Shown: piece after piece, positions 9,669 to 26,394 of the stretch
Layout: each line of letters begins with the position of its first letter
Numbering within the stretch: position 1 is the first letter of the stretch
The notes under the pieces: generated by a model
What the model was told of the DNA's origin: nothing
The model's database searches: none
What the model saw: the letters and a program-made list of their open reading frames with translations, nothing else
Assembly: GCA_035308025.1 (NCBI GenBank)
Contig: DATGHL010000029.1
Coordinates: forward strand, 1-64,000
DNA from: Candidatus Binataceae bacterium
Lineage (GTDB): Bacteria > Desulfobacterota > Binatia > Binatales > Binataceae
Direction of reading: 5' to 3'
Length of the DNA: 64,000 nt
Translations under genes and position numbers: made by a program

Positions 9669-10976
9669 GTGCCGAAGCAAGACGCTACGGAGTTGCTCTC
9701 GATTAACGGACACGAGGTCGCGGTTACTAACCCGGGCAAGCTGTACTTCTCGAAGCAGACAAAGCTCTCAAAACTAGACCTGGTTCGCTACTATTTGTCG
9801 GTCGCGGCGGGCGCGCTCGCCGGAATCCGCGACCGGCCGCTTGTCCTCAAGCGGTACGTTAACGGCGCCGAAGGCGAAGCCTTCTATCAGAAGCGTGCAC
9901 CAGTGCAACGCCCCTCGTGGCTGCGAACGATAACGCTCGCGTTCCCTTCGGGACGGACTGCGGAAGAGATCGTTGTCGATGACGCGGCGGGGCTTGCATG
10001 GATCGTCAATCTTGGTTGCATCGAGCTGCATCCGCATCCTGTGCGCTCCGGCGATCTCGATCATCCGGACGAGTTGAGGGTCGATCTCGATCCTGTTCCG
10101 GGCGTCAGTTGGGCGGACGTGCGCACGGTCGCGCTCGAAGTGAAGTCGCTGCTGGATGAAATGGGCCTGTATGGCTGGCCCAAGACCAGCGGGTCGCGCG
10201 GGATGCACATCAATGTGCGGATTTATCCGCGGTGGACCTTCGCAGAGGTGCGCCGCGCGGCGCTCGCGCTGTCGCGAGCGGTCGAGCGGCGCGCGCCCAG
10301 CCTGGCCACATCGAAATGGTGGAAAGAGGAGCGGCATGGCGTGTTCCTCGACTACAACCAGAACGCGAAGGACCGCACCACCTGCTCGGCCTATTCTGTG
10401 CGGCCGCTCCCCGACGCCCGCGTCTCTGCGCCGCTTCACTGGCACGAGGTTCCCGACTGCGAGCCGTCCGACTTTACCGTCCTTACTATTCCGCAACGTT
10501 TTCTCGAGATCGGCGATCCGCAGGAAGGTATCGATGGAGCGGCCGGTTCGCTCGAAAAATTGCTCGAGCTTGCCGCACGAGACGAGGCCGCGGGCCTCGG
10601 CGACGCACCTTGGCCGCCGCACTTTCGCAAAACCGCGGGCGAACCGCGCCGGATTGCACCTTCGCGCGCCAGCTCCGTCGCCAGCGAACCGCGAACGAAG
10701 ATGCCCGTGATAGTTGTGGCGAACTCACCAAGTAAGGAGGCCGCGTTTTCGGGTCTGGAAAGATGGAAACGCGAACATGCCGAGGCGGCCAAGCTTCTCG
10801 CCGCCGATGACGTGCTGATTGATTCGATGCGCGGCAGATCGTCCACCTGGACGCGGATCCGAATCAACCTGCGCCATGTGCCCGATAAGTTACGGCCGCC
10901 GCACGAAACTCCTGATCCTGATGACGACCCAACTCGCGAATGGCGCACGATGCGCGCGTCGAAGAAAGGCCCTTGA
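9669..10976 (+). CDS. LigD-type polymerase/primase domain protein
   Basis: This GTG-started 435-aa protein has the AEP-family polymerase domain of LigD (PolDom), the nucleotidyltransferase that fills ends in bacterial non-homologous end joining. Visible signatures are LVLKRYVNGAEGEAFYQKRA, LAWIVNLGCIELHPHPVRS, the catalytic carboxylates in LRVDLDPVPG, TSGSRGMHINVRIYP and RTTCSAYSVRPLPDARVSAP. After about residue 300 a less conserved, basic C-terminal extension of about 130 residues follows. It is stand-alone (no ligase or nuclease domain fused) and ends 12 bp from the convergent ATP-dependent ligase gene, so polymerase and ligase functions are encoded separately. No Ku gene is in the window. 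Confidence 0.9.
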   Translation: MPKQDATELLSINGHEVAVTNPGKLYFSKQTKLSKLDLVRYYLSVAAGALAGIRDRPLVLKRYVNGAEGEAFYQKRAPVQRPSWLRTITLAFPSGRTAEEIVVDDAAGLAWIVNLGCIELHPHPVRSGDLDHPDELRVDLDPVPGVSWADVRTVALEVKSLLDEMGLYGWPKTSGSRGMHINVRIYPRWTFAEVRRAALALSRAVERRAPSLATSKWWKEERHGVFLDYNQNAKDRTTCSAYSVRPLPDARVSAPLHWHEVPDCEPSDFTVLTIPQRFLEIGDPQEGIDGAAGSLEKLLELAARDEAAGLGDAPWPPHFRKTAGEPRRIAPSRASSVASEPRTKMPVIVVANSPSKEAAFSGLERWKREHAEAAKLLAADDVLIDSMRGRSSTWTRIRINLRHVPDKLRPPHETPDPDDDPTREWRTMRASKKGP

Positions 10977-10988
10977 GAGCATCCCGGC

Positions 10989-12071
10989 TCAGATGGATCC
11001 GGCAAAAATGGCTTTCAGCTCGTGCGGCGGAACAACTTCAAGCTGCTCGTAGGTGCAATCGCGCGGCTGCTTGTCGGTACGCCACCTCCGGAACTGCGCC
11101 ATATGACGAAAGCGGGCGCCCTGCATATGCTCGTACGCGACTTCGACTACCAGTTCGGGTCTGAGCGGTTCCCACGATAGATCCTTACCGTGGCTCCAAC
11201 GGCTCTGGCCTCCCGGCATCCGCGGCGTTGCGTCATTTGCAGTTGGCTCCGCCCACGACTTCCATGGGTGATCGATGAGAGCGTTGCGACGATAGGGCGC
11301 CAGAAATTTCACCAGCTCCTGGCGTTTAGTTTGCGTGAAGCTCGCGCACACGCCGACGTGTTGCAGCGCGCCCGAATCGTCAAACAGGCCGAGCAGAAGC
11401 GAGCCGATCGCCGTGCCGACCCCTCCCTTGTGCCATCGAAAGCCGGCGACCACGCAATCGCAGTCGCGCCCGTGCTTGACTTTGAACATCACGCGCTTGT
11501 CAGGTTGATAGGCGCCGGAAATCGACTTGGCCATCACGCCGTCGAGGCCCGCGCCTTCAAAGCGTCTGAACCAATCCGCTGCGACACTTGGTGCACGCGT
11601 CGCCGGAGTCAGATGGATTGGCGGCATCGTGCTTGCCAGCAACGACTCCAGCTTCTCGCGCCGCCGCTCGAATGAAGCGGTCCGCCAATCGCAGTTTCCT
11701 TCGCACAATAGGTCGAAAAAGACGATCGAAGCCGGACTCTGTCGCGAAAGCAGTTTAACCCGCGAGGCGGCTGGATGAATCCGAAGCTGCAATTCCTCGA
11801 AATCGAGCCCGTCGTTCTTTGCGACAACGATTTCGCCGTCGAGAACGCATCGCGCGGGCAACTGCGCGCCCAGCGGCTCGAGCAACTCGGGAAAGTATCG
11901 ATTCAGCGATTTCGCCTCGCGGCTCTGCATAAGGATTTCGTCCCGGTCGCGGAAGATCAACACGCGAAACCCGTCCCACTTCGGTTCGAAGATCCAGGTT
12001 TCGCCCGCAGGTAATTTATCAATCCGCTGCGCGAGCATCGGTAGGATCGGCGGGTTCACGGGGAGATGCAC
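10989..12071 (-). CDS. ATP-dependent DNA ligase (LigD ligase type)
   Basis: The protein carries the ligase motif I EPKWDGFR with the nucleotide-accepting Lys near the N-terminus, motif III VLDGEIVV, DLLCEG, GLDGVMAKSI (motif IV) and MFKVKHGRDCDCVVAGFRWH (motif V region). An OB-fold follows with LRPELVVEVAYEHMQGARFR (motif VI region). Such ligases seal nicks and double-strand breaks, usually with Ku and the LigD polymerase. The start is uncertain: GTG at 12071 precedes the conserved NPPILPMLAQ, while a TTG at 12107 would add 12 residues. The gene converges on the polymerase gene with a 12-bp gap. A 3'-phosphoesterase domain is absent. Confidence 0.9.
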   Translation of the reverse strand: MHLPVNPPILPMLAQRIDKLPAGETWIFEPKWDGFRVLIFRDRDEILMQSREAKSLNRYFPELLEPLGAQLPARCVLDGEIVVAKNDGLDFEELQLRIHPAASRVKLLSRQSPASIVFFDLLCEGNCDWRTASFERRREKLESLLASTMPPIHLTPATRAPSVAADWFRRFEGAGLDGVMAKSISGAYQPDKRVMFKVKHGRDCDCVVAGFRWHKGGVGTAIGSLLLGLFDDSGALQHVGVCASFTQTKRQELVKFLAPYRRNALIDHPWKSWAEPTANDATPRMPGGQSRWSHGKDLSWEPLRPELVVEVAYEHMQGARFRHMAQFRRWRTDKQPRDCTYEQLEVVPPHELKAIFAGSI

Positions 12072-12605: not shown

Positions 12606-13667
12606 TCACGCCTCGATTAGCTGCGGCGACACCAGCGGCAACTCTGAATGCGGCTGCGGCCGTCCCATGCACTCACGCAGCAAGGCCGCATAACTCCGGG
12701 TTATATGCGCGGAACTGGCGAACTCCGCCTTCGACATCAACAAGGCGTGCAATTGCGGCAACCGAAAGAACGGCACGCTCGGAAAGAAGTGATGCTCGAT
12801 ATGGTAGGAGACATTCTTGGGCGCCACCAGCAGCCGTCCAACCAGACCGACCTGCATCGTGCGGCTCTGGCCGAAGGCGCCGGCAGTGTAGTCGATCGCA
12901 AAATGCTCGGCGATACTTCGCCAACGCATTATCACGATAAGCCAGGTGAAAAATGGGACCACCCAGTAGAGGATCAAGGCCTCTTCTTCGCGCGTCCAGA
13001 TAATCGCCGCCAGAGCGGCAACGTAAAAAGCGACGCGCGCGCGCACAAAGGCCTTGCTGGGCTTGTCAGGCGCAGAGAACGACGACGCCAGCCTGATCAG
13101 GTTGACGCCGCCCACTCCCGACAGGTCGCGCAAGGCGATGCGTAGGAGACTCGATAGCGGCTGCGGAAAGCGCCACTCCGGATTGTCTTTCTTGCGCCTC
13201 CAGTCAGGGTCCTGTTCGCTATTGACAAAGTTGTGATGGTTCATGTGATTGTGGCGGTACGCGCGCATCGTGGTCAGGTGCGGCCACGCCAACAGCAATT
13301 CCGACAACCAGTCGTTTAGACGCCGATTGCCGAACAGCCGATAGTGCGTCCCGTCGTGCATGAGGATTAACAGCGCGTGCTGTCGCGCCCCGATGAAGAT
13401 CACCGTCCCCACGTATAACCACGGATTCCACCAATGCTGGCAGCATGCGATCGCCGCGATGATCAGGATCCACTCAAGCATGATGTGATAGACGCTCATC
13501 AGGGGATTGATTTGCGAAAGCGCCAGCAGCTCCTCTTTGCCCAGCTTGACCGGCGTTGCGATCCTGCCGCCGGTTTCCACTTCGTTACTTGTATTCATCT
13601 TCGCTGCTCCGGATCTTTGGTTGGCCGATTCATCTCGTTCAGCTTGATCTTTAGTTAGGTTTCTCAT
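12606..13667 (-). CDS. Membrane fatty-acid desaturase family protein
   Basis: This 353-aa integral membrane protein shows the three di-iron histidine boxes of the fatty-acid desaturase superfamily: HDGTH, HNHMNHH and HIEHH in order, separated by hydrophobic segments (LEWILIIAAIACC, YVGTVIFIGARQHALLILM, VAFYVAALAAIIW, YWVVPFFTWLIVIM). The family introduces double bonds or hydroxyl groups into acyl chains or carotenoids in the cytoplasmic membrane using O2 and an electron donor. A GAGGAA sequence about 10 bases upstream supports the ATG at 13667. It is preceded by the GNAT-like gene with a 24-bp gap on the same strand, suggesting an operon. The substrate is not deducible from sequence alone. 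Confidence 0.9.
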   Translation of the reverse strand: MRNLTKDQAERDESANQRSGAAKMNTSNEVETGGRIATPVKLGKEELLALSQINPLMSVYHIMLEWILIIAAIACCQHWWNPWLYVGTVIFIGARQHALLILMHDGTHYRLFGNRRLNDWLSELLLAWPHLTTMRAYRHNHMNHHNFVNSEQDPDWRRKKDNPEWRFPQPLSSLLRIALRDLSGVGGVNLIRLASSFSAPDKPSKAFVRARVAFYVAALAAIIWTREEEALILYWVVPFFTWLIVIMRWRSIAEHFAIDYTAGAFGQSRTMQVGLVGRLLVAPKNVSYHIEHHFFPSVPFFRLPQLHALLMSKAEFASSAHITRSYAALLRECMGRPQPHSELPLVSPQLIEA

Positions 13668-13691
13668 TTTTGGATTCCTCGCATCGAGCGG

Positions 13692-14390
13692 CTATCCAGC
13701 CATGGACATCTCGGCGGCAGAGGGGACCGCGGCGGCCGCCCGGCGCTCGACATGACTTGGGCGCCGCGAGGAGCCTCGGAGCAAAGGCCGCATAAAGCTT
13801 CGCATCCGTGGCACGTCGTCGGAGAACTCCGCCGCGAAAGCATCGATCACGTTGACTAAAGCCGCGCCCTGCAAAATCACCGGCTGCACCCGCAGATAGC
13901 CGCCGCCGGCGGCCTCCACGAATGGATGCTCCACGATCGGTCCGGCGCCAACGAAACCCATCGCGGCGTAAAAGCCTGCGTGCTCGTTTGCCAGATCCCC
14001 GGCGGCCAAATATGCGATGACGGCTTTGACGCCGAGCACACGTATGCGCTTCGCCAGGCCGGCCCACACGAACAATCCGGCGCCGCTGGAGAGCGACCAG
14101 TGATCACTGCATTCGAATACGGTGCGCGGAATAAAGTCCGAAAGGTCGGGCTCGCGGCAACTTTGTGGAAAGGCTTCGAGATCGTGGGTCGCGATCCCCG
14201 CGATCATGCGGTCGGCGGACGCCGCCTCATCTTTGAAGAGACCGTAAAGTTGCGACGCGGCGAGGCGCCGGCGATTCTCCGACTGCATGCGGCTGGTTTC
14301 GCGGAAAATGCCGGCCGCCGCCCGGGCTCTTTCGACCTGCTCGATGAAAACGTCGCGTTCTGCCTCATTAACGAGTTGACGGAATTCCAT
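13692..14390 (-). CDS. GNAT-like hypothetical protein
   Basis: The protein of about 232 residues is not clearly assigned. Its second half (LAKRIRVLGVKAVIAYLAAG, ANEHAGFYAAMGFVGAGPIV) resembles the end of an acyl-CoA N-acyltransferase fold, where a helix is followed by a x-FY-x-x-x-GF motif. A strong AAGGAGGA lies about 6 bases upstream of the ATG at 14390, which was preferred over the GTG at 14396. It probably forms an operon with the desaturase 24 bp downstream. The C-terminal 40 residues are Arg/Ala-rich and poorly structured. Confidence 0.5.
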   Translation of the reverse strand: MEFRQLVNEAERDVFIEQVERARAAAGIFRETSRMQSENRRRLAASQLYGLFKDEAASADRMIAGIATHDLEAFPQSCREPDLSDFIPRTVFECSDHWSLSSGAGLFVWAGLAKRIRVLGVKAVIAYLAAGDLANEHAGFYAAMGFVGAGPIVEHPFVEAAGGGYLRVQPVILQGAALVNVIDAFAAEFSDDVPRMRSFMRPLLRGSSRRPSHVERRAAAAVPSAAEMSMAG

Positions 14391-17060: not shown

Positions 17061-18386
17061 CTAGTAATAGTCGACTGGATCGATCTGACGTTTGGCGCCG
17101 TACCAGAAGAGCATGTTCTCAGTCAGACCCTGCCAAGTGAATTTGTTCGGCGGCAGCAACAGCCGCTTGAACATCGATCTGAATGAGTAGAACTCCTTCG
17201 TACAGCGCCACACCCCTTCCTCGACCTGCTGCGGCGAGAGATTCTTCGGCACGAACATGCAGCGGAAGTTGTTGGTGTACATGTCCGCGTCCGGGATGAT
17301 CACGCGGCCCTCGTTTTCGAGCTGCGTGCGCATCGGCGTGCCGACCCGCGGCGTGACCGTGTTGAAGAAGGCTTCGGGCGCGCGCACCTCGTGCAGAAAT
17401 TTGAGCGTGTCCTCGAAAATCTGCGGATGATCGTCCTCGAGGCCGAAAAGGAAATTCAGCGAATAGTAGATACCGTGATGCTCCAGCCGCTTGAGGAGCT
17501 TCTTGTAGTCCTTGGTGTGATTCTGAATCTTGTTCATCGACAACAGGCTGTCCTGGCTGATCGATTCGACGCCGATATTGACGTGAAAGACGCCGGCCTT
17601 GGCGGCCAGCTCGAGCAACTCGTCGTCGTGATTCGAGTTGACCGTCCATAAGCAGGAAAACCGGATATTGAGCGGCTCGAGTGCGCGAAACAATTCCTTC
17701 GCGAACTTATGCTTGCCGGTAATCTGATCATCGATAAACTGGAAGCGCTTGAAGCCGGTGACGGCGATAACCTGCTTGATCTCCTCGACGATGTCGGCGA
17801 TTGGCCGCGTCCGATAACTTCCGCTGTAAAACACCGGGATCTCGCAAAACGAACAGCGGTACGGGCATCCGCGGCTGGCCTGCACCGGCACCGCCTTGAA
17901 CAGGTAGCGGTTGAGCTTGAGCAGCTCGTGCCGTGGCCGCGGCAGGTTCTTCAGATCGTGCAGTTTGTCGGACTTGTAGATCTGTTTGAGCTTGCCGTCA
18001 CGCCAGTCCTGCAACAGCTCCGGCCAGACCACGTCGGCCTCGCCCTGGACAACCGCGTCGGCATGTTTGAGCGCCTCCTGCGTCTGCAAGGTCGCGTGGA
18101 AGCCGCCCATCACGACGGGAGTGCCGCGGCGGCGAAACTCGTCGCTGAGCTGATAGGCGCGCAGCGAGGCGCCGATCGTCGTGGTCATCCCGACGAGGTC
18201 CCAGCCGCCATCGAAGTCGAGCTCTTCCAGGCGCTCGTCGCACAACGTGACGTCGTAGTCGTCAGGCGTTAGCCCGGCCATCAGCGGAATCATCAGGCCC
18301 ATGATCAGACGCCAACGGGTCTTGTGCGGCGTCCCGTCAAGATGGAGCGTGGTCGGTTGCACCAATAGGATTCTAGGTTTTTTCAC
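17061..18386 (-). CDS. Cobalamin-binding-type radical SAM enzyme
   Basis: The 441-aa protein has an N-terminal Rossmann-like B12-binding domain (KPRILLVQPTTLHLDG at residues 3-18, GWDLVGMTTTIGASLRAYQL, GTPVVMGGFHATLQTQEAL) and a radical SAM TIM-barrel domain. The 4Fe-4S motif is SRGCPYRCSFCEIP (CxxxCxxC) near residue 180, followed by FQFIDDQITGK and NIGVESISQDSLLSMNK. Members use SAM and often methylcobalamin for C- or P-methylation and related steps in lipid, hopanoid or cofactor synthesis; the substrate is unknown. The canonical DxHxxG cobalamin-ligand motif is not evident. It lies 39 bp downstream of a CDP-alcohol phosphatidyltransferase on the same strand, suggesting a shared lipid-related pathway. 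Confidence 0.85.
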   Translation of the reverse strand: MKKPRILLVQPTTLHLDGTPHKTRWRLIMGLMIPLMAGLTPDDYDVTLCDERLEELDFDGGWDLVGMTTTIGASLRAYQLSDEFRRRGTPVVMGGFHATLQTQEALKHADAVVQGEADVVWPELLQDWRDGKLKQIYKSDKLHDLKNLPRPRHELLKLNRYLFKAVPVQASRGCPYRCSFCEIPVFYSGSYRTRPIADIVEEIKQVIAVTGFKRFQFIDDQITGKHKFAKELFRALEPLNIRFSCLWTVNSNHDDELLELAAKAGVFHVNIGVESISQDSLLSMNKIQNHTKDYKKLLKRLEHHGIYYSLNFLFGLEDDHPQIFEDTLKFLHEVRAPEAFFNTVTPRVGTPMRTQLENEGRVIIPDADMYTNNFRCMFVPKNLSPQQVEEGVWRCTKEFYSFRSMFKRLLLPPNKFTWQGLTENMLFWYGAKRQIDPVDYY

Positions 18387-18425
18387 AACTTTCTCTCGGA
18401 GTGCAGATGGAGATAGATCAGTTTT

Positions 18426-19580
18426 TCAGGACCCTTGCCGTTGCCGACTAGTCAGAATCCAGAGCACGAACGCGAAGGCGTAGCAGCCGACCGCCGCGGT
18501 CCATGCAAACCACGCCAGCCGATTGGCGATCGCCAGAATCAGTACGATATATGCAAAGTCGCGCCCCGTCGCCCGCTCGACCTTGCTGATCCATCTGCTG
18601 GTGGAAGCGCCCGCGACGCGCAGTGCGCGATCTACGGAAACTGCGCACAGGCTGAAACCGGCCAAGAGAATCAGCAGCAGGTAAAGATATGCGGCGCTGT
18701 GGTTGACGCGATAACAACCCGTCATCAGGCCGGCGAAAATCGCCACGTGGACCAGATTGTCGGTGAAGACGTCGAGCTTGCCGCCGAACTTGGTCTCGAC
18801 CATGCGCAGGCGCGCCAGTTCGCCATCAACGCCATCGATCGTCGTCGATACCACGAACAGCATCGCACCGAGGAGCCTCAGCCAATAGCTGGTCGACGCC
18901 AGCATGGCGGCGCAGCCGAACCCCAGCGCGGTATTCGCGAGCGTAACCGCGTTCGGTGAGACACGGCGGCGCGCGAGTGGCAAGCTGAGGCGCCACGACA
19001 GTCGCCGATCGAGCCATCGCGCCATCGGTGCGTCGGAGGCGACGCTTTCATCGCGCACGGCGCGCGCCAGTCGCACTTCGGCTTCGTTCCGATCCTCGGG
19101 GCGTCCATTCAGCGCGAACGGCAGCACGCCAGTGACCATCCGGTCGGGCCGCGCAGCGCCTGCCGCGTCGCCGTCGAGCAAATTCCTTAGCGGACCCACT
19201 ATGATCGCACCGCCCTGCTCCGGGTCGGCACTGTTGATAGTCAACGTACCACCCGGCGATGCGGCGTACTGCGCGAGCGCGCGCCTCAGGTTCGACTGCG
19301 CCATCACCAGATTACCGGTGAAACGGACACATGGCGTAGAGGGCTCAATATCTTCACTCGCATCGGCAAGAGATTCGACCAGACAAACCGCCGGATTGTC
19401 GCGAAAACGTCCCAAAGCCGCCTGAGCTTCCGCACGCCGAGCCGTCGGGGTTTCAATCAGGAAGCGCCGGATACCTGCGCGTTCGCAGAGGATCATCAAG
19501 CGCTCCAGCAACGGCCGGCCGAAGATAGAATCTTTTGCTCTCGACGGGGCTTGTATTAGCGCAGTTTCTATCACAGGCAA
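18426..19580 (-). CDS. CDP-alcohol phosphatidyltransferase with N-terminal nucleotidyltransferase-like domain
   Basis: The C-terminal half (about residues 195-384) is a CDP-alcohol phosphotransferase. The diagnostic DGxxAR-x8-Gx3Dx3D motif appears as DGELARLRMVETKFGGKLDV followed by FTDN, surrounded by five or six membrane helices (FGCAAMLASTSYWLRLLGAM, YLYLLLILLAGFSLCAV, YIVLILAIANRLAWFAW). The first ~170 residues resemble a degenerate nucleotidyltransferase fold (RPLLERLMILCERAGIRRFL) without the glycine-rich activating loop. Similar fusions make inositol- or glycerol-type phosphodiesters. The enzyme would join a CDP-activated lipid or polyol to an alcohol in the membrane. It is divergent from the HAD/nucleotidyltransferase/ATP-grasp genes, which could supply the activated headgroup. 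Confidence 0.82.
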   Translation of the reverse strand: MPVIETALIQAPSRAKDSIFGRPLLERLMILCERAGIRRFLIETPTARRAEAQAALGRFRDNPAVCLVESLADASEDIEPSTPCVRFTGNLVMAQSNLRRALAQYAASPGGTLTINSADPEQGGAIIVGPLRNLLDGDAAGAARPDRMVTGVLPFALNGRPEDRNEAEVRLARAVRDESVASDAPMARWLDRRLSWRLSLPLARRRVSPNAVTLANTALGFGCAAMLASTSYWLRLLGAMLFVVSTTIDGVDGELARLRMVETKFGGKLDVFTDNLVHVAIFAGLMTGCYRVNHSAAYLYLLLILLAGFSLCAVSVDRALRVAGASTSRWISKVERATGRDFAYIVLILAIANRLAWFAWTAAVGCYAFAFVLWILTSRQRQGS

Positions 19581-19592
19581 TTACGGAACACG

Positions 19593-19621
19593 GTTCTAAA
19601 CGATTCTGACCGATGAGTCAA
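19593..19621 (-). promoter_or_regulatory. Possible sigma-70 promoter of the CDP-alcohol transferase gene
   Basis: On the minus strand TTGACT (19621-19616) is followed after 17 bases by TAGAAC (19598-19593), matching the -35 box well and the -10 box in four of six positions. The start codon at 19580 would leave a very short leader. This is a weak prediction. Confidence 0.3.
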
Positions 19622-19763
19622 TGTAACAAGCCGACAACTCGCGGTTAACACCCTATGCGTAAGTATAGCCCCGGGTCACTGACTCGATGGGACCAAGGAC
19701 AGCCGATCGTCGCCCACCCTATATGTTCGGCCCAGAGAGGGGCTGCTAAACTCGTGCGGACGA

Positions 19764-20492
19764 ATGCGCGCTCTCCTCTTCGACTTCGGTGGAACGCTAG
19801 ATTTTCCGCGCCATTGGCTCGATCGTTTCGTCGGACACTACCACGGCGCCGGGCTGAGTCTCAGCCGCGCCGAGCTTGACCCGGCCTTTGCGGCGGCAAC
19901 TTTGGCGGGTTATCGCGCAGGGCCGGCGATTTGGAATTACAGTCTGCGCGAACTGGTTGCGTTTATGGTGGATCACCAAATCAGATTCTTGAGTAATCAA
20001 AAGATGAAAGGACATCCGTTCTATGGAGAACCGAACCAACTTCCGCTCATTGGGGAAATGAAGCATCTTATCCAGTCGGCTTTTGTCGAGGAGTCCGAGA
20101 TCGGACTCGCGCGTAGCCGCGGCCTTATCTCAACGCTCGCGCAGGAATTCAGGATCGGCGTGGTGTCGAACTTTTACGGCAATCTGGAGCGGGTGCTCGA
20201 CGACGCCGGGTTCGGCAGGATTATCACGACAGTTGCGGATTCGGGGCGGTTGGGGGTCTACAAGCCCGACGCAGGAATCTATGCGGCGGCGCTCGCGATG
20301 CTCGGAGCCGAGGCGCGCGCGGCCGTGATGGTCGGTGATTCCCTGAGCAAAGACTGCGCGCCCGCCCGCCGCGTCGGGATGCGCACGGTTTGGCTGCGAC
20401 ACGCGGATGCAACCGCCATCGAACCGGTTGAAGCCGATTTCACGATCGATACGCTCGATGAGTTGGAGGATGTGCTATGCCGGATGGGCTGA
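19764..20492 (+). CDS. HAD-superfamily hydrolase
   Basis: This 242-aa protein has HAD motif I as LLFDFGGTLD at residues 4-13 (the second Asp of DxD is replaced by Gly, a variant found in several HAD subfamilies). Motif II lies in IGVVSNFYGN, the Lys in VYKPDAGIY, and motif IV in VMVGDSLSKDCAPARRVGM. An alpha-helical cap (about residues 18-120) is inserted after motif I. It probably dephosphorylates a small phosphorylated intermediate. It overlaps the nucleotidyltransferase gene by 16 bp, so the two are co-translated, and both should act on the same headgroup pathway. Specificity cannot be read from sequence. Confidence 0.85.
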   Translation: MRALLFDFGGTLDFPRHWLDRFVGHYHGAGLSLSRAELDPAFAAATLAGYRAGPAIWNYSLRELVAFMVDHQIRFLSNQKMKGHPFYGEPNQLPLIGEMKHLIQSAFVEESEIGLARSRGLISTLAQEFRIGVVSNFYGNLERVLDDAGFGRIITTVADSGRLGVYKPDAGIYAAALAMLGAEARAAVMVGDSLSKDCAPARRVGMRTVWLRHADATAIEPVEADFTIDTLDELEDVLCRMG

Positions 20493-21205
20493 GTGGCGCG
20501 ATTATCGCGGCTGGACGCGGCGAACGTCTGCGAGCGGCCAGCGGCGGGCTGCCCAAGCCGTTGGTCGAGTTGGGCGGCAAATCGCTGCTCTTGCGTCAGG
20601 TTGAGGGGCTGACGCGGCTCGGCGCCAATCCGATCCACGTAATCGTTAATTCCGAAACGGCAGCTTTGATGGGGGCGCGGCAAATCCGCATGCCCGATCA
20701 GGTGCAATTGATTGTAGCCGATACGCCGAACTCGATGGAGTCGCTGCTGATTCTGGGTGAGCGGATCCAATCACCGCGGTTTCTCTTGAGCACGGTCGAT
20801 GCGATCGTCGCTGAGGATGAACTGGAAACGTTCGCGGCACACGCGCAGCTCGCGATGGAATTACGCTCGCTGGACGGCGCGCTTGGCGTCGTGCGATGGC
20901 GCGGCGACCATCGGCCGCTGTTTGTCGAGACTATCGCCGACGGTGCGATCACTCACTTTGGCGGCGAAGCAGCCGCTCGCGTGACGGCCGGAATCTACCT
21001 CTTTACGCAGCGAATCTTTACGTATGCTGCCATGGCGCACGCGCGGCGACTCGGCGCGCTGCGCGAGTTTCTGGGGTTCCTGCTTGAGCAGCGGCTGCGG
21101 TTTATCGCGATTGAACTGAAGAGTGCAGTGGATATCGACGAGGCGGCAGATCTCGCTTTGGCCCGCTCGATAATCGCGAGCCGGGCGACGGGAGAATCCG
21201 GATGA
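20477..21205 (+). CDS. Sugar-phosphate/alcohol-phosphate nucleotidyltransferase
   Basis: The first 40 residues hold the nucleotidyltransferase signature (SGAIIAAGRGERLRAASGGL, then PKPLVELGGKSLL) with the activating-loop glycines and the PKP lysine. PRFLLSTVDAIV corresponds to the metal-binding D-x-D region, with only one Asp clear. At 242 aa it is the size of the MobA-like/GlmU-N-like single-domain enzymes that form CDP-, GDP- or dTDP-activated compounds. It overlaps the HAD gene upstream and the ATP-grasp gene downstream (ATGA, 4 bp). Given the nearby CDP-alcohol transferase, CTP is the likely nucleotide (inference). Confidence 0.85.
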   Translation: MPDGLSGAIIAAGRGERLRAASGGLPKPLVELGGKSLLLRQVEGLTRLGANPIHVIVNSETAALMGARQIRMPDQVQLIVADTPNSMESLLILGERIQSPRFLLSTVDAIVAEDELETFAAHAQLAMELRSLDGALGVVRWRGDHRPLFVETIADGAITHFGGEAAARVTAGIYLFTQRIFTYAAMAHARRLGALREFLGFLLEQRLRFIAIELKSAVDIDEAADLALARSIIASRATGESG

Positions 21206-22116
21206 GTCTGCAGGTTCTCGGTATCTATCGGGAAGTTGAGTTTTCGCCCGGCAAGGTCGGGGCGGACCGCGCAATCATGGACGCCGCACTGGATTGTCTG
21301 CGTGCGAGAGGAGCGCGAACCGCGGCGCTGGAAGCCCCGGCGTTCGTCTCGTCGTCGGCGGAGCTGCCCGACACGCAACTGGTGCTGGCAATGTGTCAGG
21401 GCGGCGAGGCGCTCGCGCGTCTGGCCGCGGTTGAGAAAGCCGGCGCTGTCGTAATCAACTCCGCCTTGGCGATCCGCAACTGTTATCGCGACCTGCTCGG
21501 CCTGGGTTTGAGTAACGCCCGAGTGCCGACCCCTGCCGGGGCGGTGGTGCAAACGCACGCGCCATATTTTTCATCGCCCGGCGGCAGCGCCGCTCCGTTG
21601 TCGCGGCTTGAGCCGGTTCCGAGGTTGGGGCTCACGGCCTCGCAGCCGTTGGATTTGTCGCGGCCGATGTACGTCAAGCGCGGGGATATGCACGCGCTGG
21701 CCGAGGACGACGTCAGTCGGGTAGACGGGGGCGCACAACTCGAGGCGGCGTTGCGGCGGTTCGCGCAACGCGGGATTGCCCAAGCCTATGTTCAGCAGGA
21801 GGCCGAGGGCATCGTGATCAAGTTCTATGGCGTGGGCAACGGGCAGGAGTATTTCTCGACGCTTGCGGCTGACGGTCTCCAGTTGCCGGAGGAGGTTCGT
21901 CGTGAACTAGTCTCCGCGGCCGGCCGCGGCGCGAAAGCCCTGGGACTCGAAGTCTGGGGCGGGGACGCCGTGATTGGCGCCGGCGGCCTTTCGGTGATCG
22001 ATTTTAACGACTGGCCGAGCTTTGAGCGCGTGCGCGCCGCCGCCGCCCCCGCTATCGCCCGCCGTGGCCTCGATTGCTGGCGGCGTCACGTGGCGGAGCG
22101 CGACGTTGCAGTCTGA
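21202..22116 (+). CDS. ATP-grasp-type ligase, substrate unknown
   Basis: The 304-aa protein looks like a divergent ATP-grasp enzyme. It has an N-terminal pre-ATP domain, a central RPMYVKRGDMHALAEDDVSR segment where the ATP-binding Lys sits on a strand, then VQQEAEGIVIKFYGVG and a C-terminal ALGLEVWGGDAVIGAGGLSV leading to IDFNDWPSF, which matches the metal-binding D/N-x-N-x-x-P ending of RimK/Ddl-like members. Such enzymes make amide or ester bonds through acyl-phosphates. It is the third gene of a tightly overlapping plus-strand cassette. A role in tailoring a phospholipid or soluble phosphodiester headgroup (for example amino-acyl attachment) is a guess from context. Confidence 0.75.
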   Translation: MSLQVLGIYREVEFSPGKVGADRAIMDAALDCLRARGARTAALEAPAFVSSSAELPDTQLVLAMCQGGEALARLAAVEKAGAVVINSALAIRNCYRDLLGLGLSNARVPTPAGAVVQTHAPYFSSPGGSAAPLSRLEPVPRLGLTASQPLDLSRPMYVKRGDMHALAEDDVSRVDGGAQLEAALRRFAQRGIAQAYVQQEAEGIVIKFYGVGNGQEYFSTLAADGLQLPEEVRRELVSAAGRGAKALGLEVWGGDAVIGAGGLSVIDFNDWPSFERVRAAAAPAIARRGLDCWRRHVAERDVAV

Positions 22117-22677: not shown

Positions 22678-24282
<1,605 letters not shown>

Positions 24283-24361
24283 GTTCGGCGTCCGGTCGAG
24301 AGCGACGGTCTAACTACTGCTACTTATTTGACGCCGGACGATCTGTAAACCTCGCCCAGGC

Positions 24362-25378
24362 TCAGGAGCCGAATTGTTCGGCGCGTTTCTCGAGCGCGCG
24401 CAAGCGTCGCGCAAGTTCGGGTAGGCGCGGCTCGACCGCAACCATCCGACGGAAGACTTTCAGATCGATCGCCGGCGTGCCGCCGACCAGAGCGTCGTCC
24501 GCCAAATCGTTATGCACGCCCGCCTGCGCAATGACGCGAACCCGATCGCCGATATTAGCATGATCGGCGCAGCCCGATTGTCCGCCGAACTGGCACCAGC
24601 TCCCGAGCTTGACCGAACCGGCGAGGCCGGACTGCGCCGCCATCCGCGAGTATTCGCCAACCTCGCAGTTGTGCCCCACCTGAATCAGATTGTCGAGTTT
24701 GACGCCACGCCGGATGAGCGTCACGCCCATCGTGGCGCGATCAATCGTCGTGTTCGCGCCGATTTCGACGTCGTCCTCGAGCATTACGCTGCCGACCTGC
24801 GGGACCTTGAGCAAGGCGCCGCGATGCTCGACGAAGCCGAAGCCGTCGGCGCCGATCACCGCACCGTTGAGAATCACGACGCGGTTGCCGATCGTGACGC
24901 CCTCACGAAGCGAAACCTGGCTGTGGCAGACGAAGTCGTCACCGATACGGACGTTCGCGTAAATCGTTACATGGGGATGAATCACCGCGTTGCGGCCGAT
25001 CTTGACGTTCTCGCCAATCACCGCGTATGCGCCGACATGGGCGTTGTCGCCGATCCGGGCCGACGCGGCGATGGCGGCACTCGGATGGATTCCGGCCGAG
25101 GGACGATAGGGCGGAAAGAAGACCTCGAGCGCGCGCGCGAAGTCGAACGCCGGATTCTCGCTGATCAAGACGGCGCCCGGGGCATCGCCGACGAGGTCGG
25201 CGGGCACGATCGCCGCGGCGGCGGCCGAGGATCGTAACGCCGCGGCGTATTTCGGCCCGGTCGCAAAGGTAATCATGCCGGGCCCGGCCATCTCGATCGG
25301 AGCCGGGCCGGCGATCTCGACTGATCCATCACCGCGAATTGGCAAGCCGAGCTTTTGCGCAAGTTCAGTCAGCTTCAT
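24362..25378 (-). CDS. lpxD: UDP-3-O-acylglucosamine N-acyltransferase LpxD
   Basis: This 338-aa protein catalyses the third step of lipid A synthesis, adding a 3-hydroxyacyl chain to the 2-amino group of UDP-3-O-acyl-glucosamine in the cytoplasm. Residues 1-100 match the N-terminal uridine-binding domain (MKLTELAQKLGLPIRGD, ISENPAFDFARALEVFFPP). A left-handed hexapeptide-repeat helix follows (NAVIHPHVTIYANVRIGDDF, GADGFGF), with the catalytic His region LDNLIQVGHNCEVGEYSRMA, and a C-terminal helix. Its presence shows an LPS-bearing outer membrane. An IS1595 element is inserted roughly 10 bases before the start codon, leaving GGAGAA as the ribosome-binding site; expression may now depend on a promoter in the IS. 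Confidence 0.95.
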   Translation of the reverse strand: MKLTELAQKLGLPIRGDGSVEIAGPAPIEMAGPGMITFATGPKYAAALRSSAAAAAIVPADLVGDAPGAVLISENPAFDFARALEVFFPPYRPSAGIHPSAAIAASARIGDNAHVGAYAVIGENVKIGRNAVIHPHVTIYANVRIGDDFVCHSQVSLREGVTIGNRVVILNGAVIGADGFGFVEHRGALLKVPQVGSVMLEDDVEIGANTTIDRATMGVTLIRRGVKLDNLIQVGHNCEVGEYSRMAAQSGLAGSVKLGSWCQFGGQSGCADHANIGDRVRVIAQAGVHNDLADDALVGGTPAIDLKVFRRMVAVEPRLPELARRLRALEKRAEQFGS

Positions 25379-25467: not shown

Positions 25468-26394
25468 ATGAACATATGGAAAGATGGCGAACCGCAGATT
25501 GCCCGCCAGATGACGCTTGCTGACTTTGACCGGATGTTTCCTGATGAAACGGCGTGCAAGCTCTACCTGACCCTGAAGCGCTGGCCCGGAGGCGTTCAGT
25601 GCCCGCGCTGCGCCAATACCAAGGTTTACGAGAGCACCAAGCGCCCGTTCCATTGGCAGTGCATGAAATGCGGTCCAGGAAAGCGCAGGCCCTATCGGTT
25701 CTCGGTCACGGTCGGTACTGTATTCGAGAACACTAATTACAAACTGCTGGTTTGGTTTAAGGTTCTGTATCTGATCCTTACCAGCAAGAAGGGAATCAGC
25801 GCGCTTCAGATTCACCGCATGATCGGAAGCGGCTCCTACCGTACGGCTTGGTTCATGTGCCATCGGCTTCGCGCTGGACTCGCCGACGAGGGATTCCGCA
25901 AGTTGATGGGTATTGTCGAAGTTGACGAGACCTATATCGGTGGACTCAATGCAAACCGACCGCTGAAAAAGCGCTTCGCCCAGAAAGGACGCGGCCCGTC
26001 CGGAAAAACTGCGGTTATTGGAGCTATCGCCCGCAAAGGTAACGTCACCTGTCAAATCATCGAAGATACTTCCATCCCGACCATTTCGCGGTTCGTCCGT
26101 AAAGCGGTCTCCGACAAGGTTAGCTTGGTCGCCACCGATGAAGGCGCGGGCTATCGCTCTTTGCATCGTGAGTTTCCGCACGACACGGTTGACCATAAGG
26201 CACTCGAATACGTTCGCGGCGAAGTACATACGAACAATATCGAAAGCTTTTGGAGTCTGCTGAAGCGCGGAATTATCGGCACCTATCACAACGTGAGCAC
26301 GAAATACCTGCCGCTGTACCTGAATGAGTTTCAGTTTCGCCACAATAACCGCAAAAATCCTGACATATTCGGCGAGGCGGTAAGAGGATGCTGA
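25468..26394 (+). CDS. IS1595-family transposase (ISXO2-like)
   Basis: The 308-aa protein has the N-terminal zinc-ribbon of this family (VQCPRCANTKVYES and WQCMKCGPGKRR) and an ISXO2-like DDE domain. The catalytic region includes VDETYIGG, LVATDEGAGYRSLHREFPHD and NNIESFWSLLKRGIIGTYHN. Length and motifs are complete with no frameshift, so it may be active. The enzyme would cut and rejoin DNA at the element's inverted repeats. It is oriented opposite to the surrounding minus-strand genes. Confidence 0.92.
   Translation: MNIWKDGEPQIARQMTLADFDRMFPDETACKLYLTLKRWPGGVQCPRCANTKVYESTKRPFHWQCMKCGPGKRRPYRFSVTVGTVFENTNYKLLVWFKVLYLILTSKKGISALQIHRMIGSGSYRTAWFMCHRLRAGLADEGFRKLMGIVEVDETYIGGLNANRPLKKRFAQKGRGPSGKTAVIGAIARKGNVTCQIIEDTSIPTISRFVRKAVSDKVSLVATDEGAGYRSLHREFPHDTVDHKALEYVRGEVHTNNIESFWSLLKRGIIGTYHNVSTKYLPLYLNEFQFRHNNRKNPDIFGEAVRGC

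Follow-up and report, generated by a model that had tools for sequence, protein, structure and literature searches.

Four adjacent genes of a Binataceae contig belong to a module of distantly related bacteria, probably for a CDP-cyclitol-dependent lipid headgroup

The stretch of DNA analysed here (the window) comprises 64,000 nucleotides, positions 1 to 64,000 of contig DATGHL010000029.1 from the Candidatus Binataceae bacterium assembly GCA_035308025.1, and our subject is a group of five genes lying between positions 17061 and 22116. Four of the five, encoding a CDP-alcohol phosphotransferase (CDP-OH), a HAD-family protein, a nucleotidyltransferase (NTP transferase) and an ATP-grasp enzyme, are the front half of a module common to distantly related bacteria. 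The best overall explanation, and on balance a probable one, is that the products of these genes carry out activation and transfer in a lipid headgroup pathway that depends on a CDP-cyclitol. We consider it likely that the module serves a CDP-cyclitol lipid pathway of some kind; that its product is an amino-inositol we are slightly inclined to doubt. An earlier interpretation made from the DNA alone (the sequence-only reading) had proposed a dedicated pathway to a phosphodiester or lipid headgroup, with the product of the NTP transferase passing to the CDP-OH transferase, and the conserved linkage described below supports that proposal.

The four genes form a divergent unit. The CDP-OH gene (18426-19580, minus strand; Pfam PF01066) is transcribed away from the genes for the HAD-family hydrolase/phosphotransferase (19764-20492, plus strand; Pfam PF00702), the NTP transferase (20477-21205, plus strand; NTP_transf_3), a predicted CTP:(amino)inositol-phosphate cytidylyltransferase, and the ATP-grasp enzyme (21202-22116, plus strand), a predicted ITPK-like inositol/inosamine kinase. 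The HAD and NTP transferase genes overlap by 16 bp and the NTP transferase and ATP-grasp genes by 4 bp, while 39 bp separate CDP-OH from the fifth gene, which encodes a radical SAM enzyme. The five open reading frames, the overlaps and the gap are all exactly as the sequence-only reading had them.

This divergent unit is kept in nearly all Binataceae genomes. Our survey of relatives covered 57 genomes, with synteny read over some 33 loci; the ATP-grasp protein occurs in 36 of the 57, nearly all of them Binataceae, and in most cases CDP-OH lies near it, encoded on the other strand. The proteins of the unit are 37-61% identical, and since the arrangement persists despite such divergence the grouping is not due to chance. 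Measured against the window, CDP-OH, HAD, NTP transferase and ATP-grasp have median identities of 46-53% and the radical SAM protein one of 89%. In the common order, radical SAM-CDP-OH stands divergent from HAD-NTP transferase-ATP-grasp-AT3-HADIIIA-LLM oxidoreductase-OxRed-TetR-HpnH-polyprenyl synthase-Zn dehydrogenase-squalene hopene cyclase, where AT3 is a class III aminotransferase, directly 3' of ATP-grasp in most relatives, and OxRed is an inositol-dehydrogenase-like Gfo/Idh/MocA oxidoreductase further along the same unit. In the window genome this order is broken after ATP-grasp, and the rest of it is found on contig C38 (locus L219), with the ortholog of the family AT3 at 10242-11690 and OxRed at 13147-14175. 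The gene for myo-inositol-1-phosphate synthase (MIPS) is on a third contig (G000:C41).

Loss of the module is as informative as its conservation. In two genomes, G008 and G027, the locus is empty: PanC-radical SAM stands divergent from HADIIIA-TetR-HpnH-...-cyclase, and CDP-OH, HAD, NTP transferase, ATP-grasp, AT3 and OxRed are missing there. Neither genome has MIPS or an AT3 ortholog anywhere, and OxRed is absent from the whole genome of G008, the one of the pair searched genome-wide for it. G016, from the genus of G027, holds a decaying copy (a CDP-OH of 316 aa, a HAD fragment and no NTP transferase), and its MIPS, AT3 ortholog and OxRed are gone. At least two independent losses are implied. 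From this pattern we regard MIPS, OxRed, AT3, HAD, NTP transferase, ATP-grasp and CDP-OH as one unit. OxRed was found in 21 of 21 searched Binataceae with an intact module and was absent from G008, G016 and the module-less outgroups searched. MIPS is present in the window genome, as it is in nearly all others that carry the module; in the class outgroup, all four genomes with ATP-grasp (G036, G040, G046 and G052) carry it, and the three of them searched for OxRed (G036, G040 and G046) have that gene too. The HAD-IIIA gene 3' of AT3 was ruled out as a member, being kept in G008, G016 and G027.

The module extends well beyond the family. Scanning the ATP-grasp alignment against 84,980 species genomes gave at least 584 relatives, and the loci of the best 80 of these include Desulfobacterota, Bdellovibrio-like and Chlorobiota/Ignavibacteria-like bacteria and many Bacteroidales. 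Around ATP-grasp in the 71 loci outside Binataceae, many of them cut by contig ends and not phylogenetically independent, CDP-OH is found in 67, NTP transferase in 64, HAD in 62 and MIPS in 41. Both AT3 and OxRed are found in 14 of the loci; two have AT3 only, and none has OxRed only. The full set stands in a single run in Desulfarculales (locus L136), as two-domain CDP-OH-flippase-like-radical SAM-HAD-NTP transferase-ATP-grasp-AT3-OxRed, and a cultured strain, Desulfoferrobacter suflitae DRH4, carries the cluster complete with AT3 and OxRed (locus L141). The genes of the proposed set do travel together, then, as far as CDP-OH, HAD, NTP transferase and ATP-grasp are concerned, both in the family and across phyla; the radical SAM gene does not belong with them, AT3 and OxRed do, and MIPS is the likely source of inositol.

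A similar cluster has been predicted in gut bacteria. Heaver et al. 2022 (PMC9246714) described a putative alternative inositol lipid cluster in Bacteroides vulgatus and Prevotella, made up of an NTP transferase (BVU_RS13095), a CDP-alcohol phosphotransferase (RS13105), a HAD protein (RS13115) and MIPS. They proposed CDP-inositol as an intermediate and called the functions unconfirmed; B. vulgatus itself produces inositol lipids (PMC9246714). The words ATP-grasp and ligase are absent from the text of that paper, and kinase appears in its reference list only. Bacteroidales clusters among our loci contain MIPS, NTP transferase, ATP-grasp, CDP-OH and HAD, with AT3 and OxRed missing, and as their ATP-grasp gene lies between NTP transferase and CDP-OH, it is probably RS13100. 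The window resembles the B. vulgatus/Prevotella cluster in having NTP transferase, CDP-OH and HAD genes together, but MIPS is on another contig of the genome, and the Binatota and Desulfobacterota versions differ further in their extra AT3 and OxRed, their two-domain CDP-OH protein and their gene order. The sequence-only reading had placed the product outside the standard pathways. This is half true, the pathway being a divergent version of one already predicted in Bacteroidetes. A literature search on inosamine lipids and on bacterial ITPK in lipid clusters, with partial coverage of the literature, returned nothing relevant.

The CDP-OH protein has two domains, as had been claimed: a degenerate cytidylyltransferase-like N-terminus (residues ~1-175) and a membrane CDP-OH domain (~184-384). 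The catalytic motif D-x2-D-G-x2-A-R-x8-G-x3-D-x3-D is intact in 33/33 relatives, and the N-domain, of nucleotidyltransferase-like fold, lacks the signature AAGxGxR in 33/33. The AlphaFold model (pLDDT 86.5) superposes over its whole chain on the bifunctional IPCT-DIPPS of A. fulgidus (4mnd; Z 24.5, 344 residues, 20% identity), with AF2299 and PIP synthases as the next matches; the IPCT-DIPPS model NF041135 gives 68 bits over the CDP-OH domain, short of its cut-off of 580. Two-domain architecture, whole-chain fold and CDP-OH catalytic motif are thus common to both proteins, but the window protein has lost the cytidylyltransferase signature from its N-domain, and a separate gene probably provides that activity. 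With IPCT-DIPPS as its closest structure, the enzyme could be thought to make a soluble phosphodiester, a compatible solute such as di-myo-inositol phosphate, by condensing CDP-inositol with inositol phosphate as archaeal DIPPS does. This is very improbable: hyperthermophiles are not known from these clades, and LPG_synthase_TM membrane proteins are frequent partners of the module. The Bacteroidetes counterparts are, moreover, tied to inositol lipids (PMC9246714). A phosphonolipid (PntC/AEPT-like) product, suggested by the aminotransferase, was rejected. The CDP-OH N-domain resembles PntC at the general fold level only (Z 14.8), and MIPS is the recurrent partner; phosphoenolpyruvate mutase was not noticed in the neighbourhoods read, which were not searched for it specifically.

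The NTP transferase carries the signature AAGxGxR...PK in 34/34 relatives. Its profile finds full-length PDB matches in CTP-inositol-1-phosphate cytidylyltransferase (2xme, 7.3e-13) and 4mnd (3e-12); the top two PDB matches are partial ones to sugar-1-phosphate enzymes. As the full-length matches include an inositol-1-phosphate cytidylyltransferase, activation of a sugar, for example to GDP-mannose, is not favoured, and no evidence was found for GDP-mannose or any other standard precursor, the alternative that the sequence-only reading had raised against itself. In the HAD protein, motif I is D-x-G-G-T instead of the classical D-x-D (D-[FY]-G-G-T for nearly all of the 86 relatives compared), and the residues of motifs III/IV are conserved (alignment A3).

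The ATP-grasp enzyme had been read as a ligase for acylation or amide tailoring, and it looks more like an inositol-phosphate kinase. Sequence support for an ATP-grasp protein is weak (LysX, 20 bits) and the AlphaFold model (pLDDT 89) confirms the fold, matching RimK/LysX with a Z of about 22. Profiles from two alignments nevertheless find plant ITPK4 (AtITPK4, 7pup) as the best PDB sequence match, with E 1.9e-6 and 3.1e-4, ahead of RimK at 0.0026 and 0.0042; EhITPK1 (1z2n) and human ITPK1 are also matched. Pfam Ins134_P3_kin reaches no better than E 0.014, and ATPgrasp_ST is the weak match of most of them. A motif, D-x-N-D-W-P-S-F, is invariant in 39 aligned members and replaces the E-x-N metal motif with P-G of RimK/LysX: the aligned segments are IIDFNDWPSF in the window family, IVDLNYLPSF in ITPK4, VVDVNVFPSY in EhITPK1 and VMEVNSSPGL in RimK. 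The likeness to the ITPK kinases, suggestive as it is, lies in the ATP-grasp fold and the D-x-N-x-x-P-S-[FY] and KFY segments, and the difference in weak overall similarity and in the shortness of the bacterial protein (270-300 aa); no ITPK is among the 50 structural matches listed for the model. The ITPK4 match and the common motif make a kinase likelier than a ligase, and we think it reasonably probable that the protein is an ITPK-like kinase. The window protein has an insertion of ~20 residues (around 119-145, of low pLDDT; 21555-21650) not seen in its relatives.

A ligase would couple an amino acid with the amino group of a headgroup, an amino alcohol produced by AT3, and both the RimK/LysX fold and the aminotransferase gene adjoining ATP-grasp in Binatota and Desulfobacterota would suit it. 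We judge this improbable. An amine ligase is argued against by the ATP-grasp gene being kept equally in clusters where the aminotransferase is missing, and the metal motif is the D-x-N of ITPK and not that of RimK. NTP transferase and ATP-grasp are also fused in three loci (L137, L143 and L187), which points to consecutive steps and suits a kinase feeding a cytidylyltransferase. The main argument is that the core is identical with and without AT3 and OxRed, so that ATP-grasp would act before CDP activation, as a kinase.

Aminocyclitol biosynthesis runs from an inositol phosphate through a phosphatase, a dehydrogenase and an aminotransferase to a kinase. Linkage, joint loss, homology and fold are what we observe for the module; the succession of steps, drawn up by analogy with this order, we infer, as we do the action of each enzyme on inositol, the amino nature of the product and a lipid as acceptor. 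MIPS, encoded elsewhere in the genome, would provide inositol phosphate, which HAD would convert to free inositol. OxRed and AT3 would turn inositol into amino-inositol (inosamine), the ITPK-like ATP-grasp kinase would phosphorylate the (amino)inositol, the NTP transferase would form CDP-(amino)inositol, from which the membrane enzyme CDP-OH would pass the cyclitol phosphate on to a lipid alcohol. In those Bacteroidales that lack AT3 and OxRed, the same core would lead to CDP-inositol. A plain inositol lipid pathway, with AT3 and OxRed acting elsewhere and a phosphatidylinositol-like product as predicted for B. vulgatus, could account for those Bacteroidales clusters and for the inositol lipids that B. 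vulgatus makes (PMC9246714). We think it rather unlikely: in Binataceae, AT3 and OxRed form a tight pair that disappears with the module, which suggests that they act on the same intermediate.

Several observations weigh against the CDP-(amino)inositol scheme. The nearest named relatives of AT3 are GABA/ornithine-type aminotransferases and racemases, and the best NCBIfam model for OxRed, inositol 2-dehydrogenase IolG, scores 51 bits, far under its cut-off and level with sugar dehydrogenases. In overall fold the nearest matches of the ATP-grasp protein are the RimK/LysX ligases, and the ITPK signal in its sequence is of modest strength (30 bits over 100 residues). HAD lacks the second Asp of motif I, so that its chemistry may not be that of an ordinary phosphatase. 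Finally, G020 and G033 (93% and 91% complete) have the module and no MIPS match, and MIPS adjoins the module in none of the Binatota loci examined.

The radical SAM gene (17061-18386, minus strand) had been taken for a methylase acting later in the pathway. Pfam and NCBIfam back the cobalamin-type call, finding a B12-binding domain, and the tailoring role is rejected. The gene is present in 35/35 family genomes at 82-93% identity, the module-less G008 and G027 included (82-83%), and is retained at the empty sites; we therefore see it as a neighbour, conserved within a region of hopanoid genes, and not as a pathway step. It belongs to the superfamily of HpnJ and TIGR04072 (80 bits each), but at 79.8 bits against the HpnJ cut-off of 577.6 (TIGR03471) it lies far under both equivalog cut-offs and represents a distinct family. 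True HpnJ (723 bits) flanks HAD in Desulfobacterota locus L133, with the same gene cluster again adjoining HAD in L131 and L141. By eye, the radical SAM protein of L136 resembles that of the window at its N-terminus, and there may be an occasional link between this type of radical SAM protein and the module. Relatives of 37% identity, from other families of the class, lie near acyltransferase-like genes (L233, L234, L235).

Other surroundings deserve mention. In Binataceae the module is embedded in the hopanoid gene region (HpnH, polyprenyl synthase and squalene-hopene cyclase; L219:14997-19998, L229, L230), and a functional tie between hopanoids and the cyclitol pathway is possible. A sigma-54 activator and LpxD beside the module (22678-25378; L087) are neighbours within the genus only, G001 also having them, and most family members differ there. 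A transposase-like open reading frame of IS1595-type appearance (25468-26394) stands between LpxD-like and heptosyltransferase-like genes in an otherwise housekeeping stretch.

The module would add to the predicted and unconfirmed alternative bacterial inositol lipid route a conserved enzyme hitherto undiscussed, the ITPK-like ATP-grasp kinase, and would give the pairing of HAD and kinase a chemical logic. It takes the route beyond gut Bacteroidetes, into Binatota, Desulfobacterota and Bdellovibrio-like lineages, and suggests that the route has an amino-cyclitol version. At its boldest, and this we offer tentatively as doubtful, the finding would mean a membrane lipid class not recognised before, with an amino-inositol (inosamine) phosphate headgroup formed via CDP-inosamine, and a widespread bacterial ITPK-family kinase possibly related to the ancestry of the eukaryotic inositol phosphate kinases. 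Such bacterial ITPK relatives would bear on the origin of the enzymes of inositol phosphate signalling.

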